Source: a virus. Taken from it: a stretch of DNA of 25,959 nucleotides. Both the position numbers and the translations under genes were made by a program. Under the pieces are notes generated by a model. It searched no databases. It saw nothing but the letters and a program-made list of their open reading frames with translations, and was not told the DNA's origin. Of the stretch, positions 4,317 through 25,854 are shown piece by piece; position 1 is the stretch's first letter, and each line of letters begins with the position of its first letter. Where the stretch lies: positions 1-25,959 of the IMG/VR virus record IMGVR_UViG_3300030101_004718, one strand, 5' to 3'.

Positions 4317-4502
4317 TCAGGATGCTACCCTATTTATAACACCAATTCCTTGAGCAAATAATGATCCATCACAACACTCTATAGAATAAGTATTTTTATC
4401 TTTACAATAACAAGCTCTTCTATCTCCTATAGGGCTTGTTGTACTTGGCCAATAGTTTTTTTTATTTACCACTTTTTGGATGTTTTTTAGGTAGTAAATC
4501 AT
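4317..4502 (-). CDS. Small Cys-containing phage protein
   Basis: The C-terminal 45 residues carry WPSTTSPIGDRRACYCKD, then YSIECCDGSLFAQGIG. The CxC...CCDG..(W/F)AQGIG arrangement recurs in small Bacteroidetes phage proteins encoded near capsid genes, which argues that this frame is real. Four cysteines could bind a metal or form disulfides; I know no function. The start is uncertain: an ATG at 4502 overlaps the protease gene by 41 nt, a GTG at 4472 by 11 nt, and an ATG at 4538 by 77 nt. I list the 4502 start (61 aa), but the GTG gives the most economical overlap and keeps the whole motif. It lies between the protease and the scaffold-like gene. Confidence 0.65.
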   Translation of the reverse strand: MIYYLKNIQKVVNKKNYWPSTTSPIGDRRACYCKDKNTYSIECCDGSLFAQGIGVINRVAS

Positions 4503-6072
4503 TATCCCCTTTATATTTCGGATTCTGAGGCCTACCATTTTTAACTAAATACATATAAGCATTAACTCTTGCAAATGCCCAAGCTGATGCTGATTTTATT
4601 TTAGGAGAGTGAGAAACATTAAAAGCACCTAAACCTCTTTGAAATACTGATTTAAGCTGCCCTACTGTTACACCATATCCTAATTTATCTTTATATCTTT
4701 TGTTAAAGTCATCTGCCTTTTTTTGTAGAGTGGCTTCATCTGCTTTTGAAACTTTAGCTCCCCTGCTTGATGAGGCATCTCCTTTTGCAGTTCCTTTGCC
4801 TTTCGGATTTTTATTAGGAGTATCTGATTTTGGTGCTTTAGGGCTTTTCCTAATACCACCTCTTTCTCCTACTTCTGCATAATTATCTTTTTTTTTTACA
4901 CACTTACCATCTTTCTTCACAAAACCACTAGGGCATTTACTATCATACATTTTATGTTTTTCGCAAGGCATATACCAAGTTTTCATATTACCATCTTTGT
5001 CCTCAATATCGTGTGAATGTATGCCCTCACATCCTATGTTTTTTGCCATCTCTTTAGCTTTTTCTTCTGTTGAATAAGCCAATCTATCATCTATAATAGC
5101 AAAATCATCATTTACTACTTGGGTATATAATTCTAATTTGCCTAATTTTTTTAGTTTTGCTTCACTCCATCTCTTAGCAGCTAACCCTCCCCATAACAAA
5201 TAAGATATTGTGCCACAGGCCTCCTTATCCTCTGCATTGTAGTATTCTTCTGCTCTTGACAAATAAGAATACATCCTCTTTATAGTTTGCTCACTTATAG
5301 GCTTACCTTGAGCTAATTGAGATGCTCTAATTTTACCGACATCTGTAGCACACTTATTATTTACTTTTTTATTAAGATCTATACCTCTTTTAGCATTATT
5401 CTTAACTGCTTGAGGGTAATCTTTATAGCTTTCTAGAATAAGGTTTTTACCATCCTTATATCTTTTATCTTCTTTAATAATACCAGTAATTTGTTTTAGC
5501 ATATACTCTGCCTCTTCTTCAATTATCCTTGCAAGTTCATCTTTGTTATCTTTTGGAATATCCATACGATCAGCAAAAAAACCTTCTATACTAAAACCTT
5601 TTACTTTACCTGATTTCACATATTCATTCCATACATCATCATTATCTACTTTTACTGATCCCATCCAAGTTCCTACAGGTACATCAAAACCATACTTTCT
5701 TGATTTATCAAACTTCTCATCTTCTACTATCCAACTCTCTACAAGTGTAAGGCCATTGATTTCGTGTTCGTGTTCTAAAGTAGAATTGCCCTGATTACCT
5801 TTTTTAAGGTATAATTGAGATGCTTTTTCTATTGTATCTTTAGAGAAATATATATAGTATTCTCCTTGATTATTTTTCCTATATATAGGTTTATTTGGGA
5901 TTAATAAAGCTCCCATCAATATTTTTTTCTCCTTATCAATCTCAGCAAGTTTTAACTCCTGATCTTTAAGAGCTATAAAATCTTCTTCTATTGCAGGATT
6001 TTCTACTATTGAAATAGCTTCAACTCCTGTTACTTCTTGATCTTCATCTAATATTAATTCTACTATCTTCAT
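4462..6072 (-). CDS. Multidomain prohead protease (XkdF/S78-like) with C-terminal extensions
   Basis: A 536-aa protein with at least three parts. Residues 50-170 look like the XkdF-type (S78_2) prohead serine protease: HEHEINGLTLVESWIVED near 101 supplies candidate catalytic His and Ser, and GKVKGFSIEGFF lies near 155-166. Residues 215-310 are a helical domain with YPQAVKNNAKRG and ISYLLWGGLAAKRW. Residues 345-395 hold a His/Cys-rich patch (IHSHDIEDKDGN, CEKHKMYDSKCPSGF). A Lys/Ser/Pro-rich linker (400-440) leads to a C-terminal domain with TVGQLKSVFQRGLGAF, then SHSP and WAFARVNAYMYLVKNGRP, ending NDLLPKKHPKSGK; I recognise this as recurrent in marine phages but know no function. Typical prohead proteases are 150-250 aa, so this is a large fusion. 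It would cleave scaffold and capsid during maturation. A CGTTATTTAG motif ends just before the ATG. Confidence 0.75.
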   Translation of the reverse strand: MKIVELILDEDQEVTGVEAISIVENPAIEEDFIALKDQELKLAEIDKEKKILMGALLIPNKPIYRKNNQGEYYIYFSKDTIEKASQLYLKKGNQGNSTLEHEHEINGLTLVESWIVEDEKFDKSRKYGFDVPVGTWMGSVKVDNDDVWNEYVKSGKVKGFSIEGFFADRMDIPKDNKDELARIIEEEAEYMLKQITGIIKEDKRYKDGKNLILESYKDYPQAVKNNAKRGIDLNKKVNNKCATDVGKIRASQLAQGKPISEQTIKRMYSYLSRAEEYYNAEDKEACGTISYLLWGGLAAKRWSEAKLKKLGKLELYTQVVNDDFAIIDDRLAYSTEEKAKEMAKNIGCEGIHSHDIEDKDGNMKTWYMPCEKHKMYDSKCPSGFVKKDGKCVKKKDNYAEVGERGGIRKSPKAPKSDTPNKNPKGKGTAKGDASSSRGAKVSKADEATLQKKADDFNKRYKDKLGYGVTVGQLKSVFQRGLGAFNVSHSPKIKSASAWAFARVNAYMYLVKNGRPQNPKYKGDNDLLPKKHPKSGK

Positions 6073-11289: not shown

Positions 11290-11823
11290 TTATTTTTTTA
11301 TTCCTAATATTACATCTTTTTCTACATCTAATAAATAGGCATTCAAGAAATCATCTCCAAATCTTTGAATACCTTTCTCAAACGGAGTAGAAAAAAATAA
11401 AGTAGCCCTTAACCCTCTTCTCCATATACTATTTACTATTATGTATTGCATAGATTTATAACTCATAAACCTACCCCTTTTATCTCTAAATTGAAACTTC
11501 TTTAATTTAATCCAATCTCCTATACCTTTTGTAAGGCCACCTTTTGGCCCAGAACCTGTACCAAATTTAAAAGGGCTACTAGCAGTACCTTCATCAGCAT
11601 AATAAGATTCTGTACCTCTTACACCTCTATCTTGAAAAGCTCCATAATTAGCCATCTTGAATGATACAAAGAAATTATCTTTACTAAATTCAAATACAGG
11701 CTCAATAGAATTATACAATGAATTAGAAGCTCTTTTACCCTTTTTACTAAGGTTAGATTTAGCTTGTTGTACTACATATTTAGCATAAGCCTTTACTGCT
11801 TTTTCTAATTCAGGAGTTTTCAT
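11290..11823 (-). CDS. HK97 gp10-like head-tail/tail completion protein
   Basis: A 177-aa protein with an N-terminal helix (KAVKAYAKYVVQQAKSNLSK), then SNSLYNSIEP and VSFKMANYGAFQDRGVRGTE. The sequence YGxFQDxGVxG followed by a Gly-rich loop is the signature I associate with HK97 gp10-like proteins, which complete the head-tail junction or tail terminus in siphophages. The later segment FMSYKSMQYIIVNSIWRRGL followed by FFSTPFEKG is typical of the family's second half. The length is normal for the family. The ATG overlaps the stop of the outer-membrane barrel gene (ATGA), so this structural gene is translated behind an envelope gene. Confidence 0.75.
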   Translation of the reverse strand: MKTPELEKAVKAYAKYVVQQAKSNLSKKGKRASNSLYNSIEPVFEFSKDNFFVSFKMANYGAFQDRGVRGTESYYADEGTASSPFKFGTGSGPKGGLTKGIGDWIKLKKFQFRDKRGRFMSYKSMQYIIVNSIWRRGLRATLFFSTPFEKGIQRFGDDFLNAYLLDVEKDVILGIKK

Positions 11824-12989
11824 AATTTATAATTAATACCTACACTACTATTTATAATTTCACTATCCCAAAACTTTACATATTCTCCTTCAAAAAATAA
11901 ACCTAAGTTTTTACCAATCTTCCATCCAAATATTAACCCTGCTTGGTAATCATCCCATTGTTCTCCATCTAGTTGGTTATTATGGCCACCTTTACCCCAA
12001 GAGTTTCTATGTAGATATGAGAAATCTTCATTGCCTTTTATATAGTGATGATAAGGTAGAATCCAGTTTGCGTATGCGTGTAACCAAAACTTAGATCTAT
12101 AATGATAGAAGTCAGCACCTACAATAGGAGCTATTTCCATAAAAGAATCTAGCTCACTCCATCTCTCTTTATTAAATCTATTCATCAATCCTCCATATAC
12201 TCTATCTCTAAAATCCCTATCCCCATAAGCTACTATATCTCCTTCAGGATTTCTCCAAATCCAATCATAAAAATAAGAGCCATCATCAATATTTGTGTAT
12301 TGAGTAAATTCATCTGTATATCCATACTCATATCCTAATTCGTACCAGTAGTTTACAGGATTACCTTGATCATTTAATTCGTTTAACCATAACTCTATCG
12401 GATTATATCCATAGGCTTTTTGATGAGATCTAGCAATAGCACCTGCTGATATGCTTAGTTTTTTTCCAAGTGGTAATCTAAATCTTACCTCTGCTGATTG
12501 ATATTCAAAATCTACATTACCCTGTTTTCTTTGTTCTAGTTTTACTATATGATATTTACCAGTATGCCTAATAAAATATCTAGAGTTTTCAAACTCCTCA
12601 CTTCTTTCTCTTTCTTTTTCAAAGTGTACAAGATATTCAAATCCTTTTACTGCTGCAGTTGGAGCTGAAAGGCCTACCATATTTTCATTGCCATCTATAT
12701 AGTTTTGTTTTATTTCATAATCAAATCTAGCCATTCTTCTCATCCCAAATCCTATTCTATAATCAAAAGGATGATATACTGTTTCATCTACTACATCAGG
12801 TACTGCATAAAGATCATCAGGATTAGTTCTTATAAAGTAATCAGGATATTGAGTTTCATAAGCCTCTTTAACATCTCCTGCTACATATATTGTAGAATAC
12901 TTAAATACCTTATCATATATTTTCTTTAAGGCTTGGCCATTAGCATTTGTAGTTAATAATATTAATAATATTGTTATTAGTTTTTTCAT
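11820..12989 (-). CDS. Secreted outer-membrane beta-barrel-like protein
   Basis: A 389-aa protein with a clear signal peptide (MKKLITILLILLTTNANGQ, probable cleavage after NGQ or nearby). The mature part is rich in aromatic residues and alternating strands, e.g. SAEVRFRLPLGKKLSISAGA, ending GLFFEGEYVKFWDSEIINSS and VGINYKL; this fits an outer-membrane barrel better than a virion protein. Such a gene in the middle of a tail operon is unusual, because virion proteins do not carry signal peptides. Possible roles are blocking a phage receptor in the infected cell (superinfection exclusion), changing the outer membrane late in infection, or helping lysis; the sequence does not decide. It is 2 nt from the upstream thioredoxin-like gene and overlaps the gp10-like gene. 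Confidence 0.7.
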   Translation of the reverse strand: MKKLITILLILLTTNANGQALKKIYDKVFKYSTIYVAGDVKEAYETQYPDYFIRTNPDDLYAVPDVVDETVYHPFDYRIGFGMRRMARFDYEIKQNYIDGNENMVGLSAPTAAVKGFEYLVHFEKERERSEEFENSRYFIRHTGKYHIVKLEQRKQGNVDFEYQSAEVRFRLPLGKKLSISAGAIARSHQKAYGYNPIELWLNELNDQGNPVNYWYELGYEYGYTDEFTQYTNIDDGSYFYDWIWRNPEGDIVAYGDRDFRDRVYGGLMNRFNKERWSELDSFMEIAPIVGADFYHYRSKFWLHAYANWILPYHHYIKGNEDFSYLHRNSWGKGGHNNQLDGEQWDDYQAGLIFGWKIGKNLGLFFEGEYVKFWDSEIINSSVGINYKL

Positions 12990-12991
12990 TG

Positions 12992-13327
12992 TTAAAATTT
13001 ATCTTCTATTAGTTTGTTTATATGTTTATTAATAAGCTCAATACAATTTTCTGGAAGTTTAAGATCTATGCCACTTTCCACCCTTGTTATTTCTTTACCA
13101 TTATGATACAATACTACAGTAGGTAGATACTTAATGTTTTCTTCTTTAAATAATACTGCTCTTTCTTCCATTGTAAAGTAGTATATATTGTAAACTTTAA
13201 ATGGAGTTAATTTTATTTCAGAATCCTTAACAAATCCTGCTGAGAATTGTACTATACTTATATCATTCTTAAAATCCTGAGAGTATAAGGATGTAGTTAT
13301 AAAGTATATTAAAAATATTAATCTCAT
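12992..13327 (-). CDS. Secreted thioredoxin-fold protein lacking CxxC
   Basis: A 111-aa protein with a signal peptide (MRLIFLIYFITTSLYSQ) and a compact thioredoxin-like domain: a first strand ISIVQFSAGFV, then the characteristic cis-Pro segment IKYLPTVVLYHNGKEITRVE and a C-terminal helix. In an active thioredoxin the first strand leads into WCGPC; here the corresponding position reads SAGFVKDSE with no cysteine pair, so redox activity is unlikely and a binding role is more plausible. It would act in the periplasm. The gene overlaps the upstream TM protein gene (ATGA) and abuts the barrel gene, forming a three-gene envelope cassette. Confidence 0.65.
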   Translation of the reverse strand: MRLIFLIYFITTSLYSQDFKNDISIVQFSAGFVKDSEIKLTPFKVYNIYYFTMEERAVLFKEENIKYLPTVVLYHNGKEITRVESGIDLKLPENCIELINKHINKLIEDKF

Positions 13328-13635
13328 CTTGATTTACTTATTTGGTATAATCTCTCATCTATCTTTTTTAGATTCTCCTTTATTTCATTTATATCTCCTG
13401 ATAATACATCTTGTTTTTCTTCTAATCTTTGTACTGTAGATCTTACAAGCTCATCTTTATATTGGAACTCAATAGGATTTACAGAGTTATTTTTTAAATC
13501 TTCTACATCATCAGAATTTTGAGCCACCGAAGAGGATAGAGTAAAGTATGTAGTTGCAAGTGATATTGTAAAGAATATTATTACTCCTATAGTTTTAAGA
13601 TCAAGTGTTAATTTTGAATTTTCTGAAACTTCCAT
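13324..13635 (-). CDS. Single-TM protein with periplasmic coiled coil
   Basis: A 103-aa protein. Residues 1-13 are cytoplasmic, about 14-34 form one transmembrane helix (TIGVIIFFTISLATTYFTLS), and the rest is a charged coiled coil (YKDELVRSTVQRLEEKQDVL, then DINEIKENLKKIDERLY). This N-in topology with a periplasmic coiled coil is that of an inner-membrane spanin (i-spanin/Rz-like), but no partner lipoprotein is visible. It starts the three-gene envelope cassette inside the tail operon, 1 nt after the tail-terminator-like gene. The function is uncertain, either lysis, membrane anchoring or exclusion. Confidence 0.6.
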   Translation of the reverse strand: MEVSENSKLTLDLKTIGVIIFFTISLATTYFTLSSSVAQNSDDVEDLKNNSVNPIEFQYKDELVRSTVQRLEEKQDVLSGDINEIKENLKKIDERLYQISKSR

Positions 13636-13636
13636 T

Positions 13637-14107
13637 TTAGCATATTGTTATATCGTTATAAATTATTATATCCATTGTAGCAGTAAATCCTGCTAGTTGA
13701 TTTTCAAACCTATCAAAGAAAGGTTCTAAAGATGGATCTCCTTCTAACTGATATTGGTCAGTATGCAGTTCTCCTCTTCTAAGTAGTTGTATTAATTTGT
13801 TAAGCACCCCTAATTGAGTATTTAAAATATCTTGAAGGTTATTATTTCCTGTAAATATATCTACTGGTAATTCTTTAGATTGATTTACTATATCCATTGC
13901 TAAAACACTTACATTGAAAGTTAATGTTTGTTCTCCTACTACTACATTATTAACAATAATATGAGCCATAGGAAACATATCTTGCTTTCTTAGATTTACA
14001 TCTGATATATCTCCTGAAGTTACAGTATTGATATTTTGATCTTTAAGGAGCTGATCCTTAATAGTGTTTGTAACTTGGTAATATCCTCTAATTCCTTGAT
14101 TACTCAT
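13637..14107 (-). CDS. Putative tail terminator/completion protein
   Basis: A 156-aa protein beginning MSNQGIRGYYQVTNTIKDQL followed by a beta-rich centre (MFPMAHIIVNNVVVGEQTLT, FNVSVLAMDIV) and a C-terminus with FFDRFENQLAGFTATMDIII. This arrangement of an N-terminal helix plus an alpha-beta sandwich fits the tail terminator family, and I associate this motif set with Bacteroidetes phages next to the tail chaperone. The ATG overlaps the stop of the -1 frameshift extension (ATGA), which ties its translation to the fused chaperone. Assignment to a terminator is by position and fold impression. Confidence 0.6.
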   Translation of the reverse strand: MSNQGIRGYYQVTNTIKDQLLKDQNINTVTSGDISDVNLRKQDMFPMAHIIVNNVVVGEQTLTFNVSVLAMDIVNQSKELPVDIFTGNNNLQDILNTQLGVLNKLIQLLRRGELHTDQYQLEGDPSLEPFFDRFENQLAGFTATMDIIIYNDITIC

Positions 14108-24320: not shown

Positions 24321-24446
24321 TTATCTTCCTTGACCTCTATAAGGTTTTTTATATTGTTTTGATGTTTTTAATCTACTTGCATTTTTACTATGAGGATGAG
24401 ATGTTCTCTTTCTTTTAGTATAAGTAGATATTATTTTTCTAGCCAT
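24321..24446 (-). CDS. Small basic conserved phage protein
   Basis: Translation gives 41 aa: MARKIISTYTKRKRTSHPHS, KNASRLKTSKQYKKPYRGQG, R. It is almost entirely basic and polar. The ending KPYRGQGR with an R/K-rich body recurs in short proteins of Bacteroidetes phages near lysis genes, so I take it as a real gene. Nucleic acid binding is possible. Its ATG shares a base with the holin stop (TAATG). Confidence 0.7.
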   Translation of the reverse strand: MARKIISTYTKRKRTSHPHSKNASRLKTSKQYKKPYRGQGR

Positions 24447-24853
24447 TACTTTTTTAAGATCTTAGCAGTTTTTTCAATACCTCTAGAAGTAAAATAAAAC
24501 CCTAAACTCATTATAACTATTTGGCCTAAAAGATCTACATATTGATTGGCAATATTAAACTCTCCTATATTACCATCTGTAATGGCAAATAGAGTATATA
24601 GAACTAAACTAAATATAGTTAGTAAAGGCCTGATGTTTTTAGATAGCCAAGAATCTGATTGCATATCTGCTGAATGTCTAGATGTTATTTCTTTCTCTAA
24701 ACTTAGTTCGTGAGCTATAAATATATTAGTCATATCTTTTTCAAACTCAGCTTTTTCATCTTTTGTTTGAACAAACTTATCTACTACTGAAGATATTTTA
24801 TCTGCTATACCTCCACCTGCTGCTCCAAATATTTTACCTAATATATCTTTCAT
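24446..24853 (-). CDS. Holin (GTA_holin_3TM-like)
   Basis: A 135-aa protein. An N-terminal amphipathic section has ILGKIFGAAGGGIADKISSV and a charged coiled coil (QTKDEKAEFEKDM). Two hydrophobic helices follow: IRPLLTIFSLVLYTLFAI near 87-104 and YVDLLGQIVIMSLGFYF near 105-122, with GIEKTAKILKK at the end. This fits the 3TM holin family of gene-transfer agents and Bacteroidetes phages. It makes holes in the inner membrane so the endolysin reaches the peptidoglycan. The start overlaps the previous gene (ATGA), in a cassette with the M15 endolysin two genes upstream. Confidence 0.75.
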   Translation of the reverse strand: MKDILGKIFGAAGGGIADKISSVVDKFVQTKDEKAEFEKDMTNIFIAHELSLEKEITSRHSADMQSDSWLSKNIRPLLTIFSLVLYTLFAITDGNIGEFNIANQYVDLLGQIVIMSLGFYFTSRGIEKTAKILKK

Positions 24854-24984
24854 TTTTTATCATCATAAGATTTGTAACAGATTGCAATAGCCTGTTCTTT
24901 AGTATGGTACTTTGATAATTCAGGTACACATCTAAGCATAAAATCTGATTGTTTTTCTCCTGATTTTGGTTTAGGTATTGGCAT
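24850..24984 (-). CDS. Small conserved phage protein (FMxRC...AICY type)
   Basis: Translation gives 44 aa: MPIPKPKSGEKQSDFMLRCV, PELSKYHTKEQAIAICYKSY, DDKK. The pattern PxPKxGE....F..RC.......(Q)A.AICY is one I recognise from many short phage ORFs and from tails of larger phage proteins. The two Cys positions are conserved in that pattern. The function is unknown. It lies directly after the 49-aa ORF and overlaps the holin start by 4 nt. Confidence 0.75.
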   Translation of the reverse strand: MPIPKPKSGEKQSDFMLRCVPELSKYHTKEQAIAICYKSYDDKK

Positions 24985-25134
24985 CTAATATATTTTTATA
25001 TGTAATACTAAAAAGATAAAATAAATATTAATCTCTAAAAAATCATCATCATTATTCTTAGGATGAATAGAAACTCCTAACAAGAAACAATATCCATCAT
25101 AAGATCTATCAATAATTGCTACTTCGTATTTCAC
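24985..25134 (-). CDS. Tiny hydrophobic protein (GTG start)
   Basis: Translation gives 49 aa read from GTG: KYEVAIIDRSYDGYCFLLGV, SIHPKNNDDDFLEINIYFIF, LVLHIKIY. The C-terminal third is hydrophobic (INIYFIFLVLHI). The GTG overlaps the peptidase stop (GTGA) and its TAG abuts the next ATG, which suggests a real gene. Possibly membrane-associated; no family recognised. Confidence 0.55.
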   Translation of the reverse strand: MKYEVAIIDRSYDGYCFLLGVSIHPKNNDDDFLEINIYFIFLVLHIKIY

Positions 25135-25628
25135 ATCTTATAGTAAGTGGCTTGGCTACCTTTGTACTTTGCTACTAAAACATTATTTCTATTAGCCTTC
25201 TTACTTACATAAGATAAATGAATCCATCTTGGAGAACCATCTTCACTATCAGGAGATTTACCGAACTCCCAAATCATCTGATCAAAATCTAAGTTTTCTT
25301 TAATCCAAAAGAATAACTCTCTATTTGATTTTTCTCCTAGAGTAGTCATATCAATAGCTTGGCCTTTAGTATGCTGAGATGTCTTAGAAGAGTTTGGAAT
25401 TGCCTCACAAAGCTCTTGGCTTCTGTACATACTATTAACTCTAATAGGATGGCCACACCATTCTCTTAAAGGCTCAAAACACTTCTCTGCTAATACTTTC
25501 ATATTTTTTAAATGAGCCTCTGTAGGTACATTTTTTATTTTATGTTTACTAGCAGTTTGTGAATATGTAGCCTCTCTAAAACTAATATGCTTACTAATAC
25601 TATTATTTACTTTCTCCTTTTTCTTCAT
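25131..25628 (-). CDS. Peptidase M15 family endolysin
   Basis: A 165-aa protein with the M15A peptidase signature. HISFREATYSQTASKHKIKN is the family's N-terminal segment. VNSMYRSQELCEAIPNSSKT leads into SQHTKGQAIDM, containing the zinc-binding HxxGxAxD. WIHLSY supplies the third metal ligand His. Such enzymes cut D-Ala or L-Ala peptide bonds of peptidoglycan and act as phage endolysins. There is no signal peptide, so release would depend on the holin downstream. The ATG overlaps the coiled-coil gene by 26 nt. The length is typical. Confidence 0.85.
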   Translation of the reverse strand: MKKKEKVNNSISKHISFREATYSQTASKHKIKNVPTEAHLKNMKVLAEKCFEPLREWCGHPIRVNSMYRSQELCEAIPNSSKTSQHTKGQAIDMTTLGEKSNRELFFWIKENLDFDQMIWEFGKSPDSEDGSPRWIHLSYVSKKANRNNVLVAKYKGSQATYYKM

Positions 25629-25854
25629 CTTCTTTTATTTCTGTATAGCTTCCATCTTCTAAAGATATGTTTACTTTACCATACTTATCTTCTAGATCTT
25701 TCTTAACACCTTCTTGCTGAGTTATAATTTCAGCCCATAGATGCAGTAAGCTATGTTTTTGAGTTTCTAAAACTCCAAGATCGTGCTTTATAGCATTTTT
25801 CTTTTGCTCTTGTTCTTGTAATTGCTTTAGTTCTTCTTTAGTTATTTTACTCAT
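25603..25854 (-). CDS. Small coiled-coil phage protein
   Basis: An 83-aa protein: a Gln/Lys-rich coiled-coil N-terminus (KEELKQLQEQEQKKNAIKHD), then LGVLETQKHSLLHLWAEI, KDLEDKYGKVNISLEDGSYT and an acidic tail. The LGxLExQK...L...(Y)GxVNIxLxDGxY pattern recurs in Bacteroidetes phage genomes near lysis or tail fibre genes. A structural or assembly role is likely, but unproven. It starts 49 nt after the stop of the preceding gene; a TATATTTG box lies in between. Confidence 0.65.
   Translation of the reverse strand: MSKITKEELKQLQEQEQKKNAIKHDLGVLETQKHSLLHLWAEIITQQEGVKKDLEDKYGKVNISLEDGSYTEIKEDEEKGESK

Follow-up and report, generated by a model that had tools for sequence, protein, structure and literature searches.

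Three adjacent genes in the tail operon of an uncultured phage probably form a spanin-like module for disruption of the outer membrane, with a beta-barrel as the outer-membrane partner and with the whole module moved to the tail operon in this genome. By prediction, they encode an inner-membrane protein with a periplasmic coiled coil (cc), a secreted thioredoxin-fold protein (trx) and an outer-membrane beta-barrel (barrel). A narrower proposal is put forward tentatively: the three proteins would make up a trans-envelope lysis machine whose i-spanin is directed at an integral beta-barrel in the outer membrane instead of a lipoprotein, with a redox-dead thioredoxin-fold adaptor coupling the two; such a machine would be widespread in uncultured Bacteroidota phages and absent from the GenBank phages searched. 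The stretch studied (the window) comprises bases 1-25,959 of the 31,489-base IMG/VR record IMGVR_UViG_3300030101_004718, and the genes referred to below are as follows.

11290-11823, minus strand: downstream flanking gene of the tail operon, named gp10-like in a preliminary description; no family assigned
11820-12989, minus strand: barrel, 389 aa; signal peptide and predicted outer-membrane beta-barrel of about 12 strands
12992-13327, minus strand: trx, 111 aa; Bacteroidota-type signal peptide and thioredoxin fold without CxxC
13324-13635, minus strand: cc, 103 aa; single N-terminal transmembrane (TM) segment (predicted N-in) and periplasmic coiled coil; i-spanin-like
13637-14107, minus strand: upstream flanking gene of the tail operon, named tail terminator in the preliminary description; no family assigned
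24446-24853, minus strand: holin of the GTA_holin_3TM type (PF11351, 1.1e-5; phrog_3427 holin, 5.3e-18)
24850-24984, minus strand: 44-aa gene with the holin directly next to it here, the slot being empty; in relatives of the lineage cc-lipoprotein, cc-trx or cc alone comes next
25131-25628, minus strand: endolysin, Peptidase_M15_3 (PF08291, 1.9e-8; phrog_894 endolysin, 2.8e-26)
25603-25854, minus strand: gene for an 83-aa soluble coiled-coil protein, immediately upstream of the endolysin here and of cc in other phages

The three cassette genes were called as adjacent minus-strand ORFs within the tail operon, with a 4-nt overlap between cc and trx, a 2-nt gap between trx and barrel, and a 4-nt overlap between barrel and the gene at 11290-11823; the gene at 13637-14107 ends 1 nt before cc. 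The preliminary description of three adjacent envelope-type genes with this spacing is borne out exactly by the ORFs, and its topology and folds hold as predictions. Tail-operon genes do flank the cassette as it had stated; the labels tail-terminator-like and gp10-like derive only from position and that earlier naming, and Pfam, PHROG and NCBIfam gave no function for either gene. The same three collections gave no family of its own for cc, trx or barrel. The 3-TM holin and the M15 endolysin, the presumed partner of the cassette in lysis, lie on the cassette's strand at a distance of 11 kb.

Relatives of the barrel were found in 74 viral contigs at 54-88% identity in a first scan and in at least 586 IMG/VR contigs in a profile scan. 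Because the 54-88% identical relatives occur across phages whose other genes do not align, the cassette is not a chance feature. A tblastn search of 50,697 GenBank phages returned nothing credible for four barrel variants (window, L059, L093 and L120), the cc of L054, the long form of trx in L043 or the lipoprotein of L191; an endolysin query, used as a positive control, retrieved 227 records. Among 84,980 bacterial and archaeal genomes the barrel was detected in six MAG contigs only, which are tentatively read as binned phage contigs and not as host genes. Three cassette contigs (L115, L117 and L119) come from MAGs that bear the names Maricaulis, Alphaproteobacteria and Woesearchaeota; these are probably phage sequences binned with the wrong organism. 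The hosts are probably marine Bacteroidota. The assignment to Bacteroidota is based on an invariant Gln at the first position after the predicted signal peptide, present in 30/30 barrels (cut before Q19) and 30/30 trx proteins (cut before Q17); this is the Bacteroidota 'Q rule', which has been described for phage proteins (PMC10367356).

A search for the three genes as a linked set in other viruses, as the preliminary description had proposed, found cc and trx within 1.5 kb of the barrel and on the same strand in 96/96 contigs that extend 1.5 kb or further beyond both ends of the barrel, drawn from 148 distinct barrel contigs; these are not 96 independent events, many contigs being related and the cc and trx models having been built from 30 of the same loci. 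Relatives carrying only one of the three had been named there as contrary evidence, and such evidence was found in part: cc occurs alone in L371 and cc-trx without barrel in L111 and G030 (29.5 kb), and a barrel without cc and trx was found in none of the 96 flanked contigs. Three loci (L124, L135 and L176) had been tallied initially as barrels lacking cc or trx, and these absences proved to be ORF-calling losses. The median cc-trx spacing over 143 cases was -4 nt, trx-barrel (76 cases) and barrel-cc (70 cases) each had a median of +2 nt, and gene order varied (c-t-B, B-c-t, c-t-B-c-t and B-c-c-t). In L044 (1851-4367) and L029 (7367-9822), two cc-trx pairs that differ strongly in sequence flank one barrel (c-t-B-c-t-endolysin). 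Fusions between the three genes were looked for among the barrel contigs and were not found.

Mantel tests on sequence distances gave r 0.82 for cc-trx, 0.73 for barrel-endolysin, 0.58 for barrel-trx and 0.51 for barrel-cc, with cc-trx the tightest pair and the barrel not singled out as their partner. In G020 (L093 7693-9423) the barrel is 39% identical to that of the window, versus 94% for cc and 79% for trx, the barrel having been exchanged alone beside a near-identical cc-trx. Any contact between the proteins must therefore accommodate a strongly diverged barrel, or else be confined to regions that the barrels have in common.

Where the tail genes show no alignment to those of the window, the cassette's neighbours were identified using Pfam and PHROGs as endolysins (Peptidase_M15_3, Amidase_2 and PG-binding amidase) and holins (GTA_holin_3TM and Phage_holin_4_1), so that phages unrelated in their structural genes have the cassette at their lysis genes. 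An endolysin lay within 2 kb of the barrel in 37 of the 50 loci with 4 kb on each side, versus an expectation of 10.4 based on the remaining genes at these loci (20,000 simulations, maximum 22). Example orders are c-t-B-endolysin-holin and B-c-t-endolysin; the barrel often overlaps the endolysin start, and a separate holin was present within 4 kb in 63/148 barrel loci. In some large phages the cassette is several kb from the endolysin, or no endolysin is in view.

In related phages, both those with the barrel and those lacking it, a lipoprotein family that is a likely o-spanin is encoded beside the endolysin and holin genes (L204 9722-10138, L191 11410-11883, L220 5995-6423 and L291 10455-10811). 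It is characterized by a lipobox, the pattern 'THVLAITE.GDTL.IPI' and a Gly/Lys-rich tail, and it had no convincing match in PHROG or NCBIfam. A simple swap in which the barrel replaces this lipoprotein was considered and dropped, the two being present together in 25/148 barrel contigs.

The placement of these genes was then compared within the window's own lineage. Among 80 relatives of the upstream flanking gene, the gp10-like gene directly follows it in 54; between the two lie cc-trx-barrel in 16/80, cc-trx in L319 (the contig of L111) and cc alone in L371. Because the flanking genes directly adjoin in those 54 relatives, the cassette is an insert within the tail operon. Lysis loci are collinear across the lineage (83-aa gene, M15 endolysin, small genes, slot, holin), and the slot contained no cc, lipoprotein or barrel in 7/7 genomes that have a tail cassette and in which the tail and lysis positions can both be seen (the window, G011, G023, 3300030060_005716, 3300030433_001537, G033 and G027). 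In relatives with no tail cassette in view, some of them represented by short contigs that do not reach the tail genes, the slot was occupied by cc and a lipobox lipoprotein (G012, G017), by cc-trx (G030, G024, G025) or by cc and an unrelated 66-aa gene (G029, G032); in L218 it contained cc, a small cysteine-containing secreted protein and the same lipoprotein. Thus, over the genomes examined, cc is in the tail operon or in the lysis locus and never in both. G021, with structural genes at 36-72% identity to those of the window, carries cc-trx-barrel at the lysis locus, and the one exception is G014 (32.3 kb), which has an endolysin and a holin and neither cassette nor cc. The best explanation is that lysis genes moved from the lysis cluster into the tail operon in the window's lineage, where the cassette would have left the endolysin-holin cluster with its strand unchanged.

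The secreted protein of L218 (5685-5999), which stands where trx would be, with cc on one side and the lipoprotein on the other, is a 104-aa signal-peptide protein with 'GLTCSMCSLSVKK'. It resembles a heavy-metal-associated domain and is a further small periplasmic fold found at this position.

The cc homologues have one hydrophobic segment near the N-terminus, with K/R mostly on its N side in 130/154 and the opposite in 7/154. Their predicted periplasmic part is short (median 64 residues, range 48-80), shorter than that of lambda Rz. Sequence prediction places cc in the i-spanin layout, i.e. a single N-terminal TM segment, N-in/C-out orientation and a coiled-coil periplasmic domain, as it is defined in PMC6139136. 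A type-1 variant of cc has weak, distant relatives in cultured Pelagibacter phages: in HTVC027P, gp15 precedes the M15 peptidase by two genes, and in HTVC121P, gp53 has tail genes on one side and DNA maturase B on the other, with a murein hydrolase in the vicinity. The cassette as a whole resembles the two-component spanins (lambda Rz/Rz1; T4 PseT.3/PseT.2) in combining an N-in/C-out inner-membrane protein, a periplasmic coiled coil and an adjacent outer-membrane partner, and in being encoded with endolysin and holin (definitions in PMC6139136), the last feature being seen in relatives (37/50) and in G021 and not in the window, where they are 11 kb apart. It differs from them in that the partner is predicted to be a beta-barrel, exported by way of a signal-peptidase-I signal, and not a lipoprotein, that a thioredoxin-fold protein is added, and that the genes are in the tail operon in this genome. 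A lipobox was found in 0/140 barrel and 0/148 trx proteins and in no cassette member, and the coding strand of the window and the rest of the record held no plausible gene for an o-spanin-like lipoprotein; because the lipoprotein is lacking, the cassette is not a canonical Rz/Rz1 pair or a two-component spanin as defined. Unimolecular spanins (T1 gp11) share with it the presumed role of connecting both membranes, but they are one protein and the cassette is three, and the features of that class (N-terminal lipobox and C-terminal TM segment) are absent from cc, trx and barrel.

An unlikely alternative is a holin or timing system in which cc would act as a T4 T-like holin or antiholin with one TM segment (N-in/C-out), trx as its periplasmic regulator and the barrel as an outer-membrane sensor or a bystander. 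Holins of the T4 T class have, like cc, a single N-terminal TM segment, a periplasmic domain and a place in the lysis locus. A holin stays a rival for cc because the class-III holin shares its layout and because its best PHROG matches, although weak, are to holin families (phrog_1296, 7.3e-5; phrog_10340, 7.9e-6); the tight cc-trx pair, which can occur without the barrel, is also consistent with a system of this kind. Against it, a separate holin accompanies many of the loci and is present in the window, no role for a barrel is evident, and the slot of cc also accepts an outer-membrane-type lipoprotein. Unlike the T4 T class, cc is paired with a secreted trx and a barrel, and a 3-TM holin is encoded in addition.

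The model of trx has a thioredoxin fold (pLDDT 87), with 89 PDB matches at E <=0.001, of which the top ones are thioredoxins and the best is 2e0q (E 4e-5); PF00085 matches were obtained in 19/30 members. It shares with thioredoxins (PF00085) the fold and the cis-Pro segment, the motif LPT being kept, but differs from them in that CxxC was found in 0/148 homologues, which argues that trx is not a redox enzyme.

The model of the barrel has about 12 strands (mean pLDDT 75); its long loops comprise residues 42-75, 190-282 and 311-346, and residues 86-114 are conserved but poorly predicted. By prediction, it has the signal peptide, closing strands and C-terminal beta-signal of an outer-membrane beta-barrel, the C-terminus being G-x-x-aromatic-x-hydrophobic (patterns G-x-N-Y-x-L and G-x-N-F-T-F). 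Searches of Pfam, PHROG, NCBIfam, PADLOC and PDB sequences gave no family for it, and no sequence relation to cellular porins was detected against families and PDB sequences. Structural matches, many with Z >8, were to outer-membrane barrels that serve a range of functions (Tsx, Z 13.7; KdgM; NanC; OMPLA; autotransporter domains); they support the predicted fold and nothing more on function. One strong fold match was found in BFVD (A0A516LKJ4; E 2e-26, 22% identity). Lc of PA-2 is a phage-encoded outer-membrane porin, and together with OMP-like barrels of uncultured phages in BFVD it provides a precedent for a phage gene encoding an outer-membrane barrel; the barrel of the cassette differs from these in its obligate link with cc and trx and in its position among lysis genes.

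Superinfection exclusion or envelope remodelling was the main reading of the preliminary description, which also gave an unusual spanin set as an alternative. Its view of the three genes as a linked set aimed at the host envelope is supported, and the evidence leads to the alternative that it had named. Neither exclusion nor remodelling gains support as the main reading. Exclusion or receptor masking, with the barrel as a late surface protein blocking or replacing a receptor and cc and trx helping in its assembly or anchoring, is now considered improbable. The long predicted extracellular loops, the large conserved family and the tail-operon location in this genome are compatible with it. However, the genes elsewhere belong to a lysis module and abut endolysin and holin, the tail and lysis-slot placements of cc are complementary, the neighbours are lysis or tail genes, and no anti-phage model was matched in PADLOC, which covers few Sie proteins. 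The predicted loops are also nearly as conserved as the strands (0.60-0.70 versus about 0.68-0.79), unlike surface loops under diversifying pressure.

An enzymatic attack, in which the barrel would be an OMPLA-, OmpT- or PagL-like enzyme degrading lipid or protein once lysis starts, is quite improbable. Enzyme barrels are among the structural matches (OMPLA, Z 10-11; Pla/OmpT, Z 9.5-11.8) and many polar residues are invariant, including R187, H189, D293 and H314, but the non-enzymatic Tsx, KdgM and NanC match equally well, a common fold shows no function, and charged interiors are usual in small barrels anyway. That unrelated accessory genes (morons) ride together by chance, as the partial sets of L371, L111 and G030 and the barrel subfamily exchanged in G020 might suggest, is very improbable given the 96/96 co-occurrence over different gene orders and phage types, with the barrel never found without the other two.

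The spanin-like module builds on the observed linkage, lysis-locus location and complementary placement, and on predicted topology and folds, from which we infer direct contacts and outer-membrane disruption. The type-1 cc relative near an M15 peptidase in HTVC027P and the absence of an o-spanin-like lipoprotein from the window are also counted in its favour. The proteins would be made late and kept apart by peptidoglycan, with cc anchored in the inner membrane and its coiled coil in the periplasm, trx as a secreted, redox-dead adaptor that may pair with cc, given that theirs is the tightest gene linkage, and the barrel as the putative partner in the outer membrane. The holin would trigger lysis and the M15 endolysin would then remove the wall, after which cc-trx would engage the barrel from inside and the outer membrane would be disrupted or fused. 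The role of the barrel is the weakest step. Counted against the spanin-like module are the missing lipobox, the short periplasmic part of cc, the absence of cassette and cc from G014, and cc-trx without barrel in G030; further, lipoprotein and barrel are not strict alternatives, the barrel tracks the endolysin over cc and trx, cc has its weak holin matches, and some cassettes are far from an endolysin.

Outer-membrane breakage by Bacteroidota phages is poorly known, a gap that would be partly closed by a family that recurs in at least 586 uncultured contigs and had no match among the GenBank phages covered here. Only unimolecular spanins were assigned to Bacteroidetes phages in a 2025 survey (PMC12596118), and a spanin census recorded none in 91/677 phages (PMC6139136); a literature search on barrel-based phage lysis found none. 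The spanin-like reading predicts that an outer-membrane barrel can serve as a spanin partner, which is testable in the laboratory, and the cassette provides a searchable marker for lysis modules in uncultured phages. Its placement would also document lysis genes moving from the lysis cluster into the tail operon.

Three further genes were also recorded. A 536-aa protein of the window (4462-6072, minus strand) has a Peptidase_S78_2 (XkdF-like) domain followed by DUF3721, plus a sub-threshold DUF5824 match, and short DUF5824-like genes also occur within the lysis locus of relatives (L206 9465-9929). A 49-aa protein with the pattern 'IDRS...LLG...EINIYF..LVLHIKIY' is encoded directly downstream of the endolysin and is kept in lysis loci of the lineage (window 24985-25134, L206 9320-9463 and L104 7052-7222). 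Finally, a very basic protein of 41-45 aa ending in 'Y(R/K)GQG(R/S)' (window 24321-24446, L226 1532-1657 and L222 5281-5418) is found repeatedly next to lysis genes, in these phages as well as in Pelagibacter phage HTVC027P.
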